A stretch of DNA of 17,191 nucleotides. Source: Deltaproteobacteria bacterium (GTDB lineage: Bacteria > Desulfobacterota_B > Binatia > UBA9968). The notes under the pieces are model-generated. The model saw only the letters and a program-made list of their open reading frames with translations. It was not told the DNA's origin and ran no database searches. Shown here piece by piece: positions 6,172-15,699 of this stretch; within the stretch, counting starts at the first letter, position 1; every line of letters begins with the position of its first letter. A program made the position numbers and the translations under genes. The stretch spans positions 1 through 17,191 of the forward strand of contig VBKY01000206.1 of assembly GCA_005879255.1 (NCBI GenBank), written 5' to 3'.

Positions 6172-6207
6172 TTGAACGACTTGAACTGTTTGAACGGCGT
6201 GAACGAC
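6172..6207. repeat. Four tandem 9-bp units, consensus TTGAACGAC
   Basis: Units start at 6172, 6181, 6190 and 6199 and differ from the consensus at up to three positions. The last unit touches the stop codon of the minus-strand binding-protein gene. No gene lies between 6103 and 6206. Confidence 0.7.
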
Positions 6208-7316
6208 TATTTCCGTCCCAGCTCACGCAGTGCTTTCTGCCATTTCGTCGCTTCTTTATCGTATTGATCGGTGTTGAGGCCCGCCTCGGGATACCAGCGC
6301 TTAAAACCGAAATCTTTCGACGGACTGCCGAACTCCAAATTCTCCAGAATTTTTTGTCCGTCCGGGCCGAGAATAAAATCGGCCATCAGCATCGCCGCAT
6401 GCGGATGCGGCGCTTGGTAAATAATCGCGGTGGCGCCAGCGTTGGTCGGCACTCCTTCCATCGGTACCCAATCTATCGGCGCACCCTTGCCCTTCGATTC
6501 CATCGCGTGATCGCGAAAGACCGATGGCGAGATTGGTACCTCGCCGGAAATCGCCAGATCCGCCATCGCCCGGCCAGAAATGGAATGCAAACTGATGTCC
6601 TGAGCTTTGAGTTTTTTGGCGAACTCTTCGCCTTTGAATTTTAGAATGGCGCCCATCATGCGCACGCCGGTCTCACTGGTCGTAAGCCCCATCTTGCCCT
6701 TTAGCTGGGGATGCAAAAGACCGTTGAAATTCTTTGGCACCGCGCTCGGCGGAATCAAGTTGGGATTGTAGCCGACTCCGATAAAACTTTCGCGATTGAC
6801 GCCCCAATAGTAAAGCCCGTTTCCTGCGTTCTCCTTTGCATGGGTTGGATACTTGGTAAAATGAGGCGAGGTGTAGACCGCAAGAAGTCCGTCTTCGCGG
6901 AGACTCTTCAGCAGCGGCAAAGTTGTCTCGATCGTGTCGACCAAGTACTGCCGCGCCTTCGCCTCGGCAGTGATGCGCGCCATGAGCTCGTTGCTCGCGG
7001 CGCGATACACATCAACCTTGATGCCCGGATATTTTTTCTCGAATCCTTGCGCCAATTCCTTGTACGAGCTCCCGGCCAGCGAAGTGTACCAGACGACTTT
7101 GCCTTCCGCCTTGGCACCCGCGATTAGAATCTTCTCTCGGTCTGCGCCGGTATAGGCGACGAGATCAGAAAGCGTCGTCGGTTTCTTTACTTGGGCCTGA
7201 AGTAGAACCGGGGAAACAAAAACAGCAAGCGAAACGACTGCGACAAACGAAATCAACCGAGCGCGAACGAAAGCGACCGATGACATTAGCGACTGTCGAA
7301 TTCCCGCGCCAGTCAT
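6207..7316 (-). CDS. Periplasmic ABC-type substrate-binding protein (Fe3+/polyamine-like family)
   Basis: 369 residues. The N-terminal about 42 residues form a Sec signal with a basic start and hydrophobic core (LISFVAVVSLAVFVSPVLL), with cleavage near LQA/QVKK. The mature part begins GAKAEGKVVWYTSL and continues with a FEKKYPGIKVDVYRA segment and a GPDGQKIL segment near the end, all typical of the SBP_bac_6/8 (AfuA/FbpA-like) binding proteins. The ligand cannot be read; these proteins bind ferric iron, polyamines or organic anions. The ATG overlaps the stop of the upstream hydroxylase gene as ATGA, so the two are translationally coupled; a later ATG at 7286 has no ribosome site. No permease or ATPase gene is nearby. 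The coupling suggests that it binds the substrate of the hydroxylase, but this is inference. Confidence 0.9.
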   Translation of the reverse strand: MTGAGIRQSLMSSVAFVRARLISFVAVVSLAVFVSPVLLQAQVKKPTTLSDLVAYTGADREKILIAGAKAEGKVVWYTSLAGSSYKELAQGFEKKYPGIKVDVYRAASNELMARITAEAKARQYLVDTIETTLPLLKSLREDGLLAVYTSPHFTKYPTHAKENAGNGLYYWGVNRESFIGVGYNPNLIPPSAVPKNFNGLLHPQLKGKMGLTTSETGVRMMGAILKFKGEEFAKKLKAQDISLHSISGRAMADLAISGEVPISPSVFRDHAMESKGKGAPIDWVPMEGVPTNAGATAIIYQAPHPHAAMLMADFILGPDGQKILENLEFGSPSKDFGFKRWYPEAGLNTDQYDKEATKWQKALRELGRK

Positions 7317-9760: not shown

Positions 9761-9829
9761 CGCCAAGTCGCAAAGACGCCAAGTTTTCGGAAAATTTGGT
9801 TTTCACCTTTGCGCCTTTGCGTCTTTGCG
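9761..9829. repeat. Inverted CGCAAAGACGC repeat
   Basis: Two 23-base arms (9761-9783 and 9807-9829), matching at 19 positions by hand count, face each other across a 23-base spacer. Internally each arm repeats CGCAAAG-like 7- to 8-mers. The stretch 9596-9891 (296 bases) holds this repeat, the inverted repeat at 9694 and no recognisable gene. Confidence 0.65.
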
Positions 9830-9891: not shown

Positions 9892-10299
9892 ATGAGCTGG
9901 CAGGAAAATCTTCTCAGTGATTTAGAAGAGATCAGAAACCTGATCCGTCAAACCAAACGCATCGCGGTTCTCGGCATCAAGACCGACGCCCAAGCCGACC
10001 AGCCGTCGGTTTATGTGCCGATGTATCTCAAGAAGACAGGCTTCGAAATTATTCCAGTGCCGGTTTATTACCCGGAAGCGACGGTCATTCTCGGCGAAAC
10101 GGTTTATCGAAGATTGATCGATATTCCCGGCGACATCGACATGGTCGACGTCTTCCGCCGTCCCAATGATATCAACGGCCATATCGAAGATATTCTTGCG
10201 AAGAAGCCGAAATCCATCTGGTTCCAATCCGGCATCCGCAATGACACCGCCGCGGAGATCTTTGCCAAAGCCGGCATCAAGGTCGTGCAAGATCGCTGA
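9892..10299 (+). CDS. CoA-binding domain protein (YccU-like), ending at an in-frame UGA
   Basis: 135 residues up to UGA at 10297-10299. It is a CoA_binding_2/YccU-type Rossmann protein: KRIAVLGIKTD (near 20-30) is the nucleotide-binding strand and loop, PVPVYYPEATVILGETVYR the middle, DIDMVDVFRRPNDI the signature and KSIWFQSGIRN the C-terminal part. The start at 9892 is preferred over a TTG frame opening at 9796, because the latter would translate a dispersed repeat; the ribosome site is weak (GAGG 2 bases upstream). Family members continue at this point as VVxDRC followed by a short tail (E. coli YccU has VVMDRC). Here the frame reads VVQDR, UGA, then LMVDHRRSAGT and UAA at 10333-10335. The UGA therefore replaces the conserved Cys. 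Either it encodes selenocysteine (147-residue protein) or the gene is truncated by a nonsense change. The cellular role of the family is unknown. Confidence 0.88.
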   Translation: MSWQENLLSDLEEIRNLIRQTKRIAVLGIKTDAQADQPSVYVPMYLKKTGFEIIPVPVYYPEATVILGETVYRRLIDIPGDIDMVDVFRRPNDINGHIEDILAKKPKSIWFQSGIRNDTAAEIFAKAGIKVVQDR

Positions 10300-10335
10300 C
10301 TGATGGTCGATCACCGGCGGTCAGCCGGAACGTAA
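10297..10335 (+). other. Possible selenocysteine codon, conserved C-terminal extension and SECIS-like hairpin
   Basis: The in-frame UGA is followed by eleven codons that match the family C-terminus (LMVDHRR...) and a UAA. A hairpin CCGGC (10314-10318), loop GGTCA (10319-10323), GCCGG (10324-10328) begins its loop 19 bases after the UGA. The E. coli fdhF SECIS also carries GGUC in its apical loop at about this distance. A competing fold exists: GCTGACTG (10295-10302) pairs with CGGTCAGC (10318-10325), enclosing a GGT/ACC mini-stem, and takes the UGA into its base. The UGA-C context is also leaky, so simple readthrough is another option. No sel genes are in the window. Confidence 0.45.
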
Positions 10336-10392: not shown

Positions 10393-11256
10393 TCACGCCG
10401 CCAATTTTTTAGCCCGCAACTGTTTTGCGATAAACGCCTTGATCTGGACATAAGCGCGTTCGGTCTGCGGACCCGGCTTGGCAACCCAGCGATGCTCGGC
10501 GCCTTGGAACACCTCGAATTCGCATTCGCCGCCCGCCGCCTTATAGGTAGCGGCGAATTTCTCTTGTACCGCAGGCAAAACATTGTCATCCAGCTCGCCT
10601 TGCAGAATATACATCGGCGGCAATGAAACCTTCTCGCCACGCTCGAGGATCTTCTGCGGATTACCTTCGTGAATACTCTCCCAGGGATTGAAGTAAGTCT
10701 TGCTGTTCTGAATCATTTCCGCCCATTGCCTTCTCTCCGCCTGCTGAAAGCGAGCGTAAGGATCGCTGACTGGCGAGCGCGCCACGACATAGGTCAGAGT
10801 CGCGTCGACGCTCGGCGCCTCCGGAAGTGGATGCGCGTTATAGCGCGGATCCTGCGGGCGCATCGCGCACAGTTCGATTTCGTGACCGCCGCTCGAGCTC
10901 CCCAGCGCGGCGACGGTGGCGGCGTCACCGTTCCATTCCCGTGCCTTCGCCTTGAGCCAGCGAACGCCATAGTTGGCATCCTGGACCGAAGCCGGATAGG
11001 GTGCCTCCGGCGCGCGGGTCAAGTCGATGGCGACGACTAAAATACCGCTCCGCGCGAGACTCTCGTCCATCGGCGCATTGGCCGTGCGGTCTTGATTGTT
11101 CCACGCGCCGCCGTGCAGGTCCAACAATGCCGGAAACGGCCCATCGCCCTGCGGCTGATAGACCCGCGCCATCAGTTGCCTCGCGGGCGTGCGGCGAAAC
11201 TCGGTATCCCAAACTTTGATTTCGAATCGGCCTAACGGATCGTATGCAACTGTCAT
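10393..11256 (-). CDS. Alpha/beta hydrolase (esterase/HSL-like), copy 2
   Basis: 287 residues without a signal peptide. It has the oxyanion motif DLHGGAW (H48-G50), the nucleophile elbow GSSSG (119-123, S121), the acid in QGELDDNV (D223) and the His in GAEHRW (H255), so the triad is complete. The length and the HGG motif place it among HSL/carboxylesterase-type hydrolases acting on esters or amides; the substrate is unknown. AGGAG stands 9 bases before the ATG. It follows its paralogue after 41 bases in the same operon and matches it over the full length without gaps (about 74% identity by hand count). The two differ most around residues 131-180 and near the catalytic His (AEHRW against CEHLW), which suggests different substrates. 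Confidence 0.9.
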   Translation of the reverse strand: MTVAYDPLGRFEIKVWDTEFRRTPARQLMARVYQPQGDGPFPALLDLHGGAWNNQDRTANAPMDESLARSGILVVAIDLTRAPEAPYPASVQDANYGVRWLKAKAREWNGDAATVAALGSSSGGHEIELCAMRPQDPRYNAHPLPEAPSVDATLTYVVARSPVSDPYARFQQAERRQWAEMIQNSKTYFNPWESIHEGNPQKILERGEKVSLPPMYILQGELDDNVLPAVQEKFAATYKAAGGECEFEVFQGAEHRWVAKPGPQTERAYVQIKAFIAKQLRAKKLAA

Positions 11257-11297: not shown

Positions 11298-12161
11298 TCA
11301 CGCCGCCAGCCGTTTCTTGCTCAACTGGCGTGCGATGAACGTTTTCAAAGTGTCGTAGGCGCGATCGGTCTGCGGCCCCGGTTCGCGGATCCATAGATGT
11401 TCGCAACCGGCGAAGACTTCATACTGGCACTCGCCGCCGGCGGCGCGATAGGATGTGACGAATTTCTCCTGCACCGCCGGCCGGACGTTGTCGTCGAGCT
11501 CGCCCTGCATAATCAGCAGTGGCGGCAGCTTTGCCTGATCGCCACGGTCGAGGATTTCTTGCGGATTGCCGTCGTGAATCGTATCCCACGGATTAAAATA
11601 AGTCTTGCTGTTTTGCACCATCTCGTCGCGCCCCAATTTTTCGGCGTTCAAGTAGCGGGCATAGGGATCGCTCACCGGCGAGCGGGTCGCGACGTAATTC
11701 AAGGTGGCGTCAAGTTCCGGAGCTTCGCCGAGTGTATGCACGCTGTAATAGGAGTCATGCGGACGCATGGCGCAAAGCTCGACCACATGCCCGCCGCTGG
11801 AGCTACCCAGCGCGCCGATCGTTTCCGGATCGCCGTTCCACTCGCGCGCTTTGTGTTTGAGCCAGCGCACGCCGTAGTTGGCGTCCTGCACCGAGGCAGG
11901 ATAGGGCGCTTCGGGCGCGAGGGTCAGGTCGATGGCAACAACCAAGATCCCGCTTGAGGCTAAGCTCTCATCCATCGGGGCGTTGGCTTTGCGGTCCTGG
12001 TTGTTCCACGCGCCGCCGTGCAGGTCCAACAGCACGGGAAAAGGCCCGGCTCCATTCGGTTGATAAACCCGCGCCATTAGCGTCCGCGTCGGCGTGCGGC
12101 GAAACTCGGTGTCCCAAACATTGATTTCGAAGCGGTCGGTTGGATCGTATGCAACCTTCAT
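11298..12161 (-). CDS. Alpha/beta hydrolase (esterase/HSL-like), copy 1
   Basis: 287 residues, preceded by AAGGAGGG at good spacing. Motifs are DLHGGAW, GSSSGGHVVEL (S121), QGELDDNV (D223) and CEHLW (H255), an intact Ser-Asp-His triad. It is cytoplasmic and starts 14 bases after the methyltransferase stop, so the two genes are very likely co-transcribed with the second hydrolase. Compared with copy 2, the N-terminal 110 residues are almost unchanged (about 13 differences), while the cap-like middle and the C-terminus have diverged. This fits duplication followed by a shift in specificity. Ester, lactone or formamide substrates are all possible; nothing in the sequence decides. Confidence 0.9.
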   Translation of the reverse strand: MKVAYDPTDRFEINVWDTEFRRTPTRTLMARVYQPNGAGPFPVLLDLHGGAWNNQDRKANAPMDESLASSGILVVAIDLTLAPEAPYPASVQDANYGVRWLKHKAREWNGDPETIGALGSSSGGHVVELCAMRPHDSYYSVHTLGEAPELDATLNYVATRSPVSDPYARYLNAEKLGRDEMVQNSKTYFNPWDTIHDGNPQEILDRGDQAKLPPLLIMQGELDDNVRPAVQEKFVTSYRAAGGECQYEVFAGCEHLWIREPGPQTDRAYDTLKTFIARQLSKKRLAA

Positions 12162-12831: not shown

Positions 12832-12946
12832 TGGTTGATAAATCGAAAACTTTTGTAACGGAGTCGCTGAATAACCATCTGGACTGTGCAAACGCAGTTT
12901 GGTGTGGTAGTAGCAGCCGAGAATCATGTCGAAAGGAATTGCCCCA

Positions 12947-13975
12947 ATGATGTTGGTGCTGCGTCTGTTGTTTTCCGGCAGCTTGTTCATCGTTTTTCCC
13001 CTGTTCGCCGTCAAAGCACCTGCCGCAGGGCCGCTATTGATTGCCTATGGTGGCTACAACGAAACCATGGCTCCGTTGTGGGTCGGTATCGAAAGGGGTT
13101 TGTTTAAGAAATACGGCGCTGATGCCAGCGTGCTGCAAACCCGAAGCGGTCAAATCATGATGGCGACGCTCGCCTCCGGCGGTGCGCCGCTGGTATGGGC
13201 GGCCCCAAGCAGCGCGCTCAATTCAACGGCGAGCGGCATGAAGCTTGGATGTTTCGCCGCCGGCAACAACAAACTGCCGCGCGAGCTGGTCGTCAGGAAA
13301 GGCATCGACTCACTGGAGGAATTGCGCGGCAAGACCTTCGGCGTGCAGAGCATCGGCGGCGGCGCCTGGTTGTCAACCATGGTTGCGCTCGATGCAATCG
13401 GACTCGATCCTGACAAACACAAGCTCAATGTTCGAGTGATCGGTGACACCGGCACCCAGACCCAGGCGCTGGTTTCCGGGAACATCGACGCGGCCATTCT
13501 CCCTTACAGTTACTCGGAAATGGCGAAGCGCGCCGGCGCCCGCTCCTTGGCTGACGCGGGGGCTTTGAAACTGACCTATCAAGCGACGGTCATGTGTGCG
13601 CTGAAAGAGTCGAGTGTCGTCACGGCGGAGACGATGATCGCCTTGACCAAGGGCCTGATCGAATCGCTGATCTACATTCTTGAACCTGCGAACCGGCGCG
13701 ACGTGGCGGTCGTACTGAAAAAAAATCTCCGACTGAGCAAAGACGAAGACGCCGATGCCGCCGCTCGAGTCGCGCGCTTACAAATGCCCAACCTCGACGT
13801 TGCGCTCAATGTCGACGCATGGAAAACCGTGCGGCGTCTGGTGACGCGCATCAATCCCAAAGTTCAGGAAGTGGATCTCGATCAGGTGATCGTTACATCC
13901 GTCGTGCAAAATTTGGAAGCCAGTGGTTTCCTGCCTGAAATGAGAAAAAGAATACCCCGTCAAACGATTCAATAA
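12947..13975 (+). CDS. ABC-type substrate-binding protein (NitT/TauT or NMT1-like)
   Basis: About 342 residues. The ATG at 12947 is preferred because AAAGGA lies 9 bases upstream; the frame also has an ATG at 12926 with a weak site. The N-terminus is a Sec signal (LVLRLLFSGSLFIVFPLFAV, cleaved near APAAG). The mature protein starts LLIAYGGYNETMAPLWVGIERGLFKKYG, the classic opening of periplasmic NitT/TauT/NMT1-type proteins, followed by VRKGIDSLEELRGKTFGVQSIGGG and an ALVSGNIDAAILPYS segment. The ligand is unknown; relatives bind sulfonates, nitrate, pyrimidine precursors or aromatic acids. No permease or ATPase genes are nearby. A TPP enzyme starts 11 bases downstream, so the binding protein and that enzyme are probably co-expressed. 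Confidence 0.9.
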   Translation: MMLVLRLLFSGSLFIVFPLFAVKAPAAGPLLIAYGGYNETMAPLWVGIERGLFKKYGADASVLQTRSGQIMMATLASGGAPLVWAAPSSALNSTASGMKLGCFAAGNNKLPRELVVRKGIDSLEELRGKTFGVQSIGGGAWLSTMVALDAIGLDPDKHKLNVRVIGDTGTQTQALVSGNIDAAILPYSYSEMAKRAGARSLADAGALKLTYQATVMCALKESSVVTAETMIALTKGLIESLIYILEPANRRDVAVVLKKNLRLSKDEDADAAARVARLQMPNLDVALNVDAWKTVRRLVTRINPKVQEVDLDQVIVTSVVQNLEASGFLPEMRKRIPRQTIQ

Positions 13976-13986
13976 GGAGACGACTC

Positions 13987-15699
13987 ATGCGCAGCGGAAA
14001 AGCGATGGTGAAAATCATGCAACGAACAGGAATTGACCATATCATTTCCTCGCCCGGCTCGGAGTGGCCGCCGGTCTGGGAAGCGCTGGCCGAACTGGCG
14101 GCTGAGGGAGCGCAGAAACCGAAATACGTCAACTGCCGGCATGAAGCCGTCGCGGTCGCTATGGCGGCGGGCTACACAAAAGTCACCGGTAAGCCGCAGG
14201 TGGTGATGCTTCATGCCACGGCCGGACCATTGAACGCGGCCATGGCCATACGCGCCGCGCTGCACGAGCGCACGCCAATGGTGATCATCAGTGGCGAAGT
14301 CGCGGCCTACGGCGAAAACACCAAAGTCGCCGACCCCGGCGGGCAGTGGTTACATGATCTGACCGATCTCGGCGGCTCTCCTGATCTGTTGCGCAGTTGC
14401 GTGAAGTGGGCGGATCGGGTCATGTCCGCCGAACTGCTGGCGCCGACGCTTGAGCGCGCCGTTCAGATTGCGCTCGAACCGCCGGCCGGACCGGTTCTGG
14501 TCGGGATTCCCTTCGAATGCATGATGGAAGAGGTTAACATTGCCGATCACGGTCGCTCTAACGAAGTGATCCGCGCCGTTTCAGTCGATGACGCGGCGAT
14601 CGAAAAAGCTGTGGCGATGATCGCCAGCGCCAAGAACCCGGTCGTGCTCACCGAGCATGCCGGCGGCGATCCGCGCGCCGTCGAGCGGCTTGTGGAATTG
14701 TGCGAGCTGTTTTCGCTTCCCGTTATGGAATCCTATCGGCCGGCGTTTCTGAATTTCCCAAGGACCCATCCGCTCTATCAGCACCACGACCCTAAATTTG
14801 TCGATGCAGCGGATTTAGTCTTGATGGTCGACGCGGTGACTCCCTGGTACCCGGCGAGCAAGGGACCGGAAAACGCGAAAGTTATTTCTATCGCCGAGGA
14901 ATTTCCCAACTCGCGACTACCCTACTGGGGCTATAACGTCGATCTCGCGCTGATCGCGCCGCCGGCAGCGACTTTGGCGAAGCTCGTCAAGAAAGCGAAG
15001 CTCTCTGAACAGGTTGCGGCAAATCGCGCTGAGTATACGCAGCGTCTCGGGCGCAACCGTGAGCGGCACGAAGGTTACTTTGGCAAGCTTAAAGACGAAG
15101 CGCGCAAGCATGCCGACCAGTCGCCGATCGATCCGCGCTGGCTTTGTCACGTGCTCGGCGAGGCGCTGCCGGAAAACGCCGTGATCTCTGAAGAGACAAC
15201 CGTTTATCGCTCATTGATTCAAGAAGCGATCCCACGGAGTCAAACCCAATCCTATTTTGCGCGCATCACCGGCGGGCTCGGCGTCGGCCTCAGCTATGCG
15301 CTCGGCGTGAAGTTAGCGATGCCCGACCGTCCGGTTTTCGCTTTGATCGGCGATGGCGCGTTCCATTACAATGCTGTGCCGTCGTGCCTCGGCGTGGCGG
15401 AAGAATATGGCTTGCCGATCCACGTCGTCGTATTCAACAACGGCCGATACCTATCGATGGAAACTAGCCTGATTAAATATTTTCCCGACGGCGCCGCGAA
15501 GCACACCGGCGTTCACTACGGCGCTCATATCGCGCCAAAACCCGACTACCAACTCTACGGCAAAGCCCACGGTGGCTACGGCTATCGGGTAACGCAACCG
15601 AAGGACATCAAACCAGCCATCGAACAGGCATTGAAACACGAAACCGAAGGCAAGCTTACGGTCATCGACGTCGTGCTAAGCGACTTTAATCCGCGATAA
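13987..15699 (+). CDS. Cytoplasmic thiamine pyrophosphate-dependent enzyme (acetolactate synthase/decarboxylase-like)
   Basis: 570 residues with AAGGAG 7 bases before the ATG. PYR domain about 1-180 with the catalytic Glu in CRHEAVAVAMAAGY (E53); central domain about 195-335; PP domain about 375-570 with GDGAFHY (455-461) and NN at 484-485, 27 residues after the GDG. Both cofactor motifs are intact and there is no export signal. The family performs decarboxylation or carboligation of 2-oxoacids; the sequence does not identify the substrate, and it is not an obvious ilvB because no small-subunit gene accompanies it. It follows the binding-protein gene at 11 bases. It is a distant paralogue of the Tat-exported enzyme at 1003-2892, with the same PGS and HE motifs in the first 60 residues of the PYR domain. 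Confidence 0.92.
   Translation: MRSGKAMVKIMQRTGIDHIISSPGSEWPPVWEALAELAAEGAQKPKYVNCRHEAVAVAMAAGYTKVTGKPQVVMLHATAGPLNAAMAIRAALHERTPMVIISGEVAAYGENTKVADPGGQWLHDLTDLGGSPDLLRSCVKWADRVMSAELLAPTLERAVQIALEPPAGPVLVGIPFECMMEEVNIADHGRSNEVIRAVSVDDAAIEKAVAMIASAKNPVVLTEHAGGDPRAVERLVELCELFSLPVMESYRPAFLNFPRTHPLYQHHDPKFVDAADLVLMVDAVTPWYPASKGPENAKVISIAEEFPNSRLPYWGYNVDLALIAPPAATLAKLVKKAKLSEQVAANRAEYTQRLGRNRERHEGYFGKLKDEARKHADQSPIDPRWLCHVLGEALPENAVISEETTVYRSLIQEAIPRSQTQSYFARITGGLGVGLSYALGVKLAMPDRPVFALIGDGAFHYNAVPSCLGVAEEYGLPIHVVVFNNGRYLSMETSLIKYFPDGAAKHTGVHYGAHIAPKPDYQLYGKAHGGYGYRVTQPKDIKPAIEQALKHETEGKLTVIDVVLSDFNPR

Follow-up and report, generated by a model that had tools for sequence, protein, structure and literature searches.

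Gene and features at the locus

The window, i.e. the whole analysed stretch of 17,191 nucleotides, contains a gene that is interrupted by an in-frame TGA. Its frame starts with ATG at 9892 and runs up to VVQDR, followed by TGA at 10297-10299, the tail LMVDHRRSAGT and TAA at 10333-10335. The features considered here are the following:

9892..10335, + strand: predicted gene for a selenoprotein of the CoA_binding_2 type, 147 codons with selenocysteine (Sec) plus TAA (frame, PF13380, structural model with pLDDT 96.1)
10295..10325, + strand: competing 31-base fold that includes the UGA, not regarded as the signal (-16.3 kcal/mol)
10297..10299, + strand: in-frame TGA, predicted Sec codon at the invariant Cys site of the family (141 aligned loci)
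10300..10332, + strand: conserved C-terminal tail LMVDHRRSAGT, mostly predicted helix (frame, alignment, model)
10314..10328, + strand: candidate SECIS upper stem-loop CCGGC-GGTCA-GCCGG with the loop at 10319-10323 (scan, common register, folding)
10333..10335, + strand: TAA, predicted true stop (frame)

The Pfam profile PF13380 (CoA_binding_2) matches the window protein with an E-value of 1.6e-31 and 109.6 bits, the curated cut-off being 22.8. The match extends beyond the TGA, and homologous coding sequence is therefore present on both sides of it. A first-pass annotation of this DNA had already described the TGA after VVQDR and a family-like tail up to the UAA at 10333, which is confirmed by the sequence and by the Pfam match past the TGA; the 147-residue form that it expected agrees with the read-through product counted with Met. 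We infer from the family that the window protein would bind CoA. NCBIfam release 20 contains no family for the window protein, nor for one Cys homologue.

TGA is the stop codon of three of the 13 main open reading frames tabulated in the window, and apart from the gene itself the remaining 12 are free of in-frame TGA codons. A simple reassignment of the genetic code was therefore rejected.

The TGA codon among homologues

The codon at the Sec position was read in 141 aligned loci, composed of the best 80 of 251 loci from a scan of genome contigs, two further sets of 30 loci each, and the window itself. The two sets came from 193 relatives of genome G001 (126 with a match) and from 290 relatives of genome G003 (42 with a match at 1e-30), whereas 193 relatives of G035 yielded 19 matching genomes, none of them additional to the earlier ones. 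The codon is TGC in 89 loci, TGT in 39 and TGA in 13, and nothing else occurs. The TGA aligns with a conserved Cys, as 128 of the 141 loci have TGC or TGT and the other 13 TGA, and the proposal that the UGA sits at the conserved Cys of a CoA-binding protein is confirmed by the alignment (TGC, TGT or TGA in 141 of 141 loci).

Among the 13 TGA rows, L089, L093 and L161 are second retrievals of one gene; without them, the distinct TGA genes number ten: the window, L001, L003, L049, L090, L091, L106, L162, L165 and L167. According to their source labels, L001 is from Deltaproteobacteria, L003 from Syntrophobacter sp. SbD2 and L049 from Candidatus Rokuibacteriota. In the available part of PMC1088965, at least two different TGA-containing sequences are demanded for a selenoprotein, and ten distinct ones are present here. 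The motif LMV[DE]HR behind the TGA is kept in all ten. The further matches among the relatives of G001 and G003 have no internal stop, apart from a short and weak fragment in G164 with one TAG and one TAA. When the window is compared with each of four TGA relatives, synonymous and nonsynonymous codon differences occur in the ratios 52:29, 52:29, 38:26 and 45:31.

A search with the read-through protein scored 8000 candidates. Among the best 120 listed, 86 end exactly at DR (85 with 135 amino acids and one with 150) and the remaining 34 continue through Cys into the same kind of tail. The DR-ending homologues, here compared as protein records, share 81 to 100% identity with the query, and the point of truncation is therefore old and kept. 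With the TGA gene of L049 as query, 38 of the 120 listed homologues end at DR and 82 have Cys (75 by the pattern of the script plus seven reading DRCIMV). The two lists have no sequence in common.

A SECIS-like hairpin behind the TGA

The hairpin scan required a perfect stem of four or more pairs and a loop of 3-8 nt that has a G at one of its first two positions and begins 14-36 nt past the codon. After removal of eight duplicates and one short row, ten TGA genes and 122 Cys genes were compared. A hairpin at -6 kcal/mol or better is found in 10/10 TGA genes compared with 23/122 Cys genes; at -8 kcal/mol the counts are 9/10 and 10/122, and at -10 kcal/mol 7/10 and 5/122. The median energies are -11.35 for the TGA genes and -2.25 for the Cys genes (Mann-Whitney p 2.7e-7, which is a guide only since the rows are related). 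Restricting the comparison to the 92 closest Cys rows gives the same outcome (18/92 at -6 kcal/mol). The homologue comparison that the first-pass annotation had proposed turned out in favor of its reading: the site has a TGA or Cys codon throughout, the tail is kept and a hairpin is present in 10/10 TGA genes.

The hairpin with the GGTCA loop noticed at the outset was recovered at 10314-10328, its loop beginning 19 bases after the TGA. In eight of the other TGA genes the loop starts at +20 and in L106 at +23, and over all TGA genes the loops have 3-5 nt, the stems 5-8 bp and the spacing is 19-23 nt. Mononucleotide shuffles reach the energy of the hairpin in 4 of 500 cases for the window and in up to 49 of 500 for the other nine TGA genes. 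The window hairpin taken singly is not exceptional, and the case for the hairpin is comparative.

In a common register, five of the ten TGA genes form seven pairs and two form eight, while seven pairs occur in 2/122 Cys genes and eight pairs in 0/122. L106 falls outside this register (4/8 pairs) and has its own stem GGUCGCC-GGC-GGCGACC. Among the nine TGA genes within the register, seven have G-C at pair 21-30, L090 has G-T and L165 has C-G; at pair 23-28, eight have G-C or A-T and the window is unpaired. L163, a Cys gene that is 96% identical to L165 and its sister in the tree, has C-C at pair 21-30. This pair is thus compensated where the UGA is kept (L165) and broken in the Cys sister, which is one event.

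A competing fold of 31 bases at 10295-10325 had been raised as an objection. It is real, with -16.3 kcal/mol and 3/200 shuffles folding as well, and this fold or a shortened form of it is the best structure of the window RNA if folding begins at the UGA or directly behind it. However, its 5' arm contains the UGA together with flanking bases, and the fold is not adopted by the three TGA relatives for which folding likewise began at the UGA. With folding begun at +12 from the UGA, 9/10 TGA genes, the window included, have the hairpin as their best structure; the exception is L165, which prefers another fold even from +12 on. Since bases adjoining the UGA lie inside the ribosome during decoding, we give more weight to the fold from +12 on, and the 31-base fold was set aside as the signal.

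The SECIS of E. coli fdhF combines a short stem, a GGU in the apical loop and a spacing similar to that of the window hairpin. The window hairpin differs from this element in its stem sequence and in the bulged U, which the CCGGC/GCCGG stem does not have. The first-pass annotation had counted the missing bulged U against the hairpin; the stem is indeed without a bulge, but a bulge is not part of the bSECIS model as given in the accessible part of PMC13188914, which asks for a loop of 3-9 nt with a G in its first two bases and a stem of 4-16 bp at 16-37 nt from the UGA. All ten TGA genes lie within these limits of loop, stem and spacing, the energy limit of that partly available source being left aside. 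The Rfam scan of the window gave two matches, both below the gathering score and both elsewhere.

Selenocysteine machinery in relatives

SelB is found over the cut-off in six of the nine other genomes with a TGA gene (G002, G003, G013, G014, G035 and G200). The same six have SelA over the cut-off and a tRNA-Sec over the gathering score, and ARAGORN detects a tRNA-Sec with the anticodon TCA in 6/6 of them. SelD, itself with an in-frame TGA, is present in all five of these six that were included in the SelD search (which covered neither G200 nor G202 and G203). In G001, G202 and G203, where a TGA gene is present, no SelA, SelB or tRNA-Sec was found over the cut-off; G001 has a piece of SelD that starts at a contig end, and we infer that all three are incomplete assemblies. 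No tRNA genes were found within the window. Since many of the tested genomes with a Cys gene also carry the Sec machinery, e.g. G004, G005, G007 and G201, the machinery alone cannot tell Sec from Cys.

The SelD genes contain one in-frame TGA in 11/14 genomes searched, which suggests that SelD is a selenoprotein too in the majority of these relatives.

Phylogeny and gene neighborhood

On a quick tree based on few columns (102 rows, the Sec residue masked as X), a minimum of five changes between Sec and Cys is needed, counted in either direction, and three of them are forced by well-supported branches. Shuffled Sec labels need 9.7 changes on average and 0/500 shuffles need as few as observed. 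The window groups with L001, L003, L090 and L091 in an all-Sec set of five (SH-aLRT 99). In the sister pair of L163 (Cys) and L165 (TGA), both genomes have SelA, SelB and tRNA-Sec.

Genes for a molybdopterin-binding dehydrogenase subunit and an alpha/beta hydrolase flank L003 and L090 (both Sec genes) as well as L004 (a Cys gene), and one of these two neighbors adjoins L001, L091, L005, L006 and L097, where the other side is cut or different. In the window, two tandem alpha/beta hydrolase genes (10393-11256 and 11298-12161, - strand) are 74% identical over 287 residues. Upstream of the gene, an inverted repeat of 15 nt with 93% complementarity lies at 9769-9783 and 9815-9829; none of 191 loci matched a 14-base segment of this repeat. 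The 17-kb window also contains two genes for thiamine-pyrophosphate enzymes (1003-2904, - strand, and 13987-15699, + strand) and genes for solute-binding proteins (6207-7316 and 12926-13975).

Predicted structure and a possible link to CoA

The best AlphaFold2 model of the window protein has a pLDDT of 96.1 and a pTM of 0.91, the other four models having a pLDDT of 42-57. Its best match among solved folds is TT1466 (1iul) with a TM score of 0.86 and an rmsd of 1.4, and best model and match together give the Rossmann-type fold of the family. Sec is residue 135 (model numbering, Met left out); it comes after the last strand (129-131) and immediately before the C-terminal helix (136-144). According to the model, a stop at the TGA would remove this helix. 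The stretch of TT1466 that matches the TGA region reads VVADRCLMVEHKR.

In spores of B. subtilis, the 135-residue protein YneT, which putatively binds CoA, is modified by CoA in vivo as a disulfide at Cys126, the peptide that bears CoA being TVIMDLC(126)IK (PMC8127865, from the part of that paper available to us). By its motif (DRC or DLC) and its place near the C-terminus, in the unaligned sequences, we take Cys126 to be the same residue as the Sec site. Since this presumed counterpart carries CoA, the Sec may likewise meet the thiol of CoA.

Discussion

Overall, the gene very probably encodes a selenoprotein, i.e. a CoA-binding Rossmann-fold protein with Sec at the position of an invariant Cys, as judged from the sequences compared here. 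The candidate selenoprotein proposed by the first-pass annotation is supported by the codon alignment, the kept tail, the hairpins and the sel genes in six of nine relatives. In the mechanism that we envisage, UGA 10297 would be decoded by SelB and Sec-tRNA(Sec), with the stem-loop at 10314-10328 as a guide, and translation would then continue to the UAA at 10333. Sec would thereby be placed just ahead of the C-terminal helix, where it may meet the thiol of bound CoA and form a reversible selenenylsulfide, and the protein might in this way sense, store or reduce CoA thiols. This last part, which builds on the analogy to YneT, is put forward tentatively.

The TGA could also be a true stop that arose by a nonsense mutation, in a pseudogene or by a sequencing error, with the tail as dead sequence. 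It is true that gene callers end the protein at the TGA, 86 of the 120 listed homologues stopping at DR, and that three genomes with a TGA gene (G001, G202 and G203) gave no sel genes. Nevertheless, we consider this explanation highly improbable: there are ten distinct TGA genes with a kept tail and never a TAA or TAG at the site, the hairpins are biased toward the TGA genes, and synonymous codon differences outnumber nonsynonymous ones between the window and each of the four TGA relatives. Pseudogene and sequencing error were rejected because of the conservation across the aligned loci, and the null explanation of the first-pass annotation, a nonsense mutation or sequencing error, does not account for the nine additional TGA genes of other assemblies. 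It is hardly less unlikely that selection maintains the TGA as a working stop, which yields a shorter protein and which an ordinary tRNA reads through at a low level. Such a shorter protein would fit the model, in which the core strands precede the TGA and a stop would cost only the last helix. However, this leaves unexplained why the position is restricted to TGA or Cys codons, why the hairpins have their spacing and why the tail matches the sequence of the Cys forms.

A different question is whether the Sec reacts with CoA at all. The protein might be a selenoprotein whose Sec acts in a different redox step or as a metal ligand, and here we find the matter evenly balanced. The gene of the molybdopterin-binding dehydrogenase subunit, which is a direct neighbor in some relatives of both the Sec and the Cys type, points in this direction, and CoA binding is in the present case derived from the family. 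On the other hand, the best fold matches are members of the family such as TT1466 and PH1109, and the presumed same Cys is modified by CoA in YneT (PMC8127865, as far as available).

The selenoprotein reading can be compared with several known systems. E. coli YccU is a member of the CoA_binding_2 family; further members are TT1466 of T. thermophilus (1iuk/1iul), PH1109 of P. horikoshii (2d59/2d5a), the K. pneumoniae protein 2duw and YneT of B. subtilis. The window protein has the Pfam family and the fold in common with them, and TT1466 has the DRC motif with LMVEH, but the window gene is set apart from the known members by its predicted Sec codon, which replaces the Cys codon and is followed by a SECIS-like hairpin. 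A related CoA-binding Rossmann domain is that of the alpha subunit of E. coli succinyl-CoA synthetase (2scu and 2nu9, among the weak Foldseek matches). Its Cys123 lies near the thiol of CoA and may correspond to the Sec residue; a Sec form of this subunit is not known to us.

With the bacterial selenoproteins in the available part of PMC13188914, the window gene shares a UGA at a conserved Cys, the existence of Cys homologues, a hairpin of the bSECIS type and sel genes in relatives. In contrast to them, it has no UxxC or CxxU motif and its fold is not thioredoxin-like. The families in Table 1 of that source include the FAD-dependent CoA-disulfide reductase (TIGR03385). As far as the table entry goes, this enzyme resembles the window protein in that Sec takes part in CoA-thiol chemistry, but it is a flavoenzyme by name, whereas the 147-residue domain of the window shows no sign of a flavin site.

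The inventory of May 2026 in Table 1 of PMC13188914 comprises 119 prokaryotic selenoprotein families and subfamilies, and this table lists no CoA_binding_2 protein. The accessible text of the deep-Sep paper contains neither 'CoA' nor 'PF13380', the available part of a selenoprotein list from 2022 has 'CoA' solely in other families, and a literature search, as judged by titles and the openings of abstracts, returned no CoA-binding selenoprotein. Deng et al. 2026 reported unvalidated selenoprotein candidates from groundwater genomes (according to the available part of PMC13188914), which could include this protein. Within the literature searched in this way, a Sec-bearing CoA_binding_2 family, here a predicted selenoprotein, was not found.

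If the reading is true, a family outside the thioredoxin-like folds would be added to the 119 listed prokaryotic families and subfamilies. Databases carry the protein in a truncated form (86/120 and 38/120 of the listed homologues), and the read-through reading corrects the gene. Sec usually marks a catalytic or redox-active residue, and the Cys of the DRC motif is therefore indicated as the working residue of a very common family without an assigned function, whose redox link to CoA becomes testable. The Sec/Cys pair of L165 and L163 represents a natural experiment on the benefit of selenium. In its widest form, our proposal, which we hold to be possible rather than probable, is a widespread family of selenoproteins, gained or lost repeatedly and present in at least three bacterial lineages, in which a Sec in the pocket would form a reversible Se-S bond with CoA and would act as a one-residue sensor or reductant of the CoA/CoA-disulfide couple.
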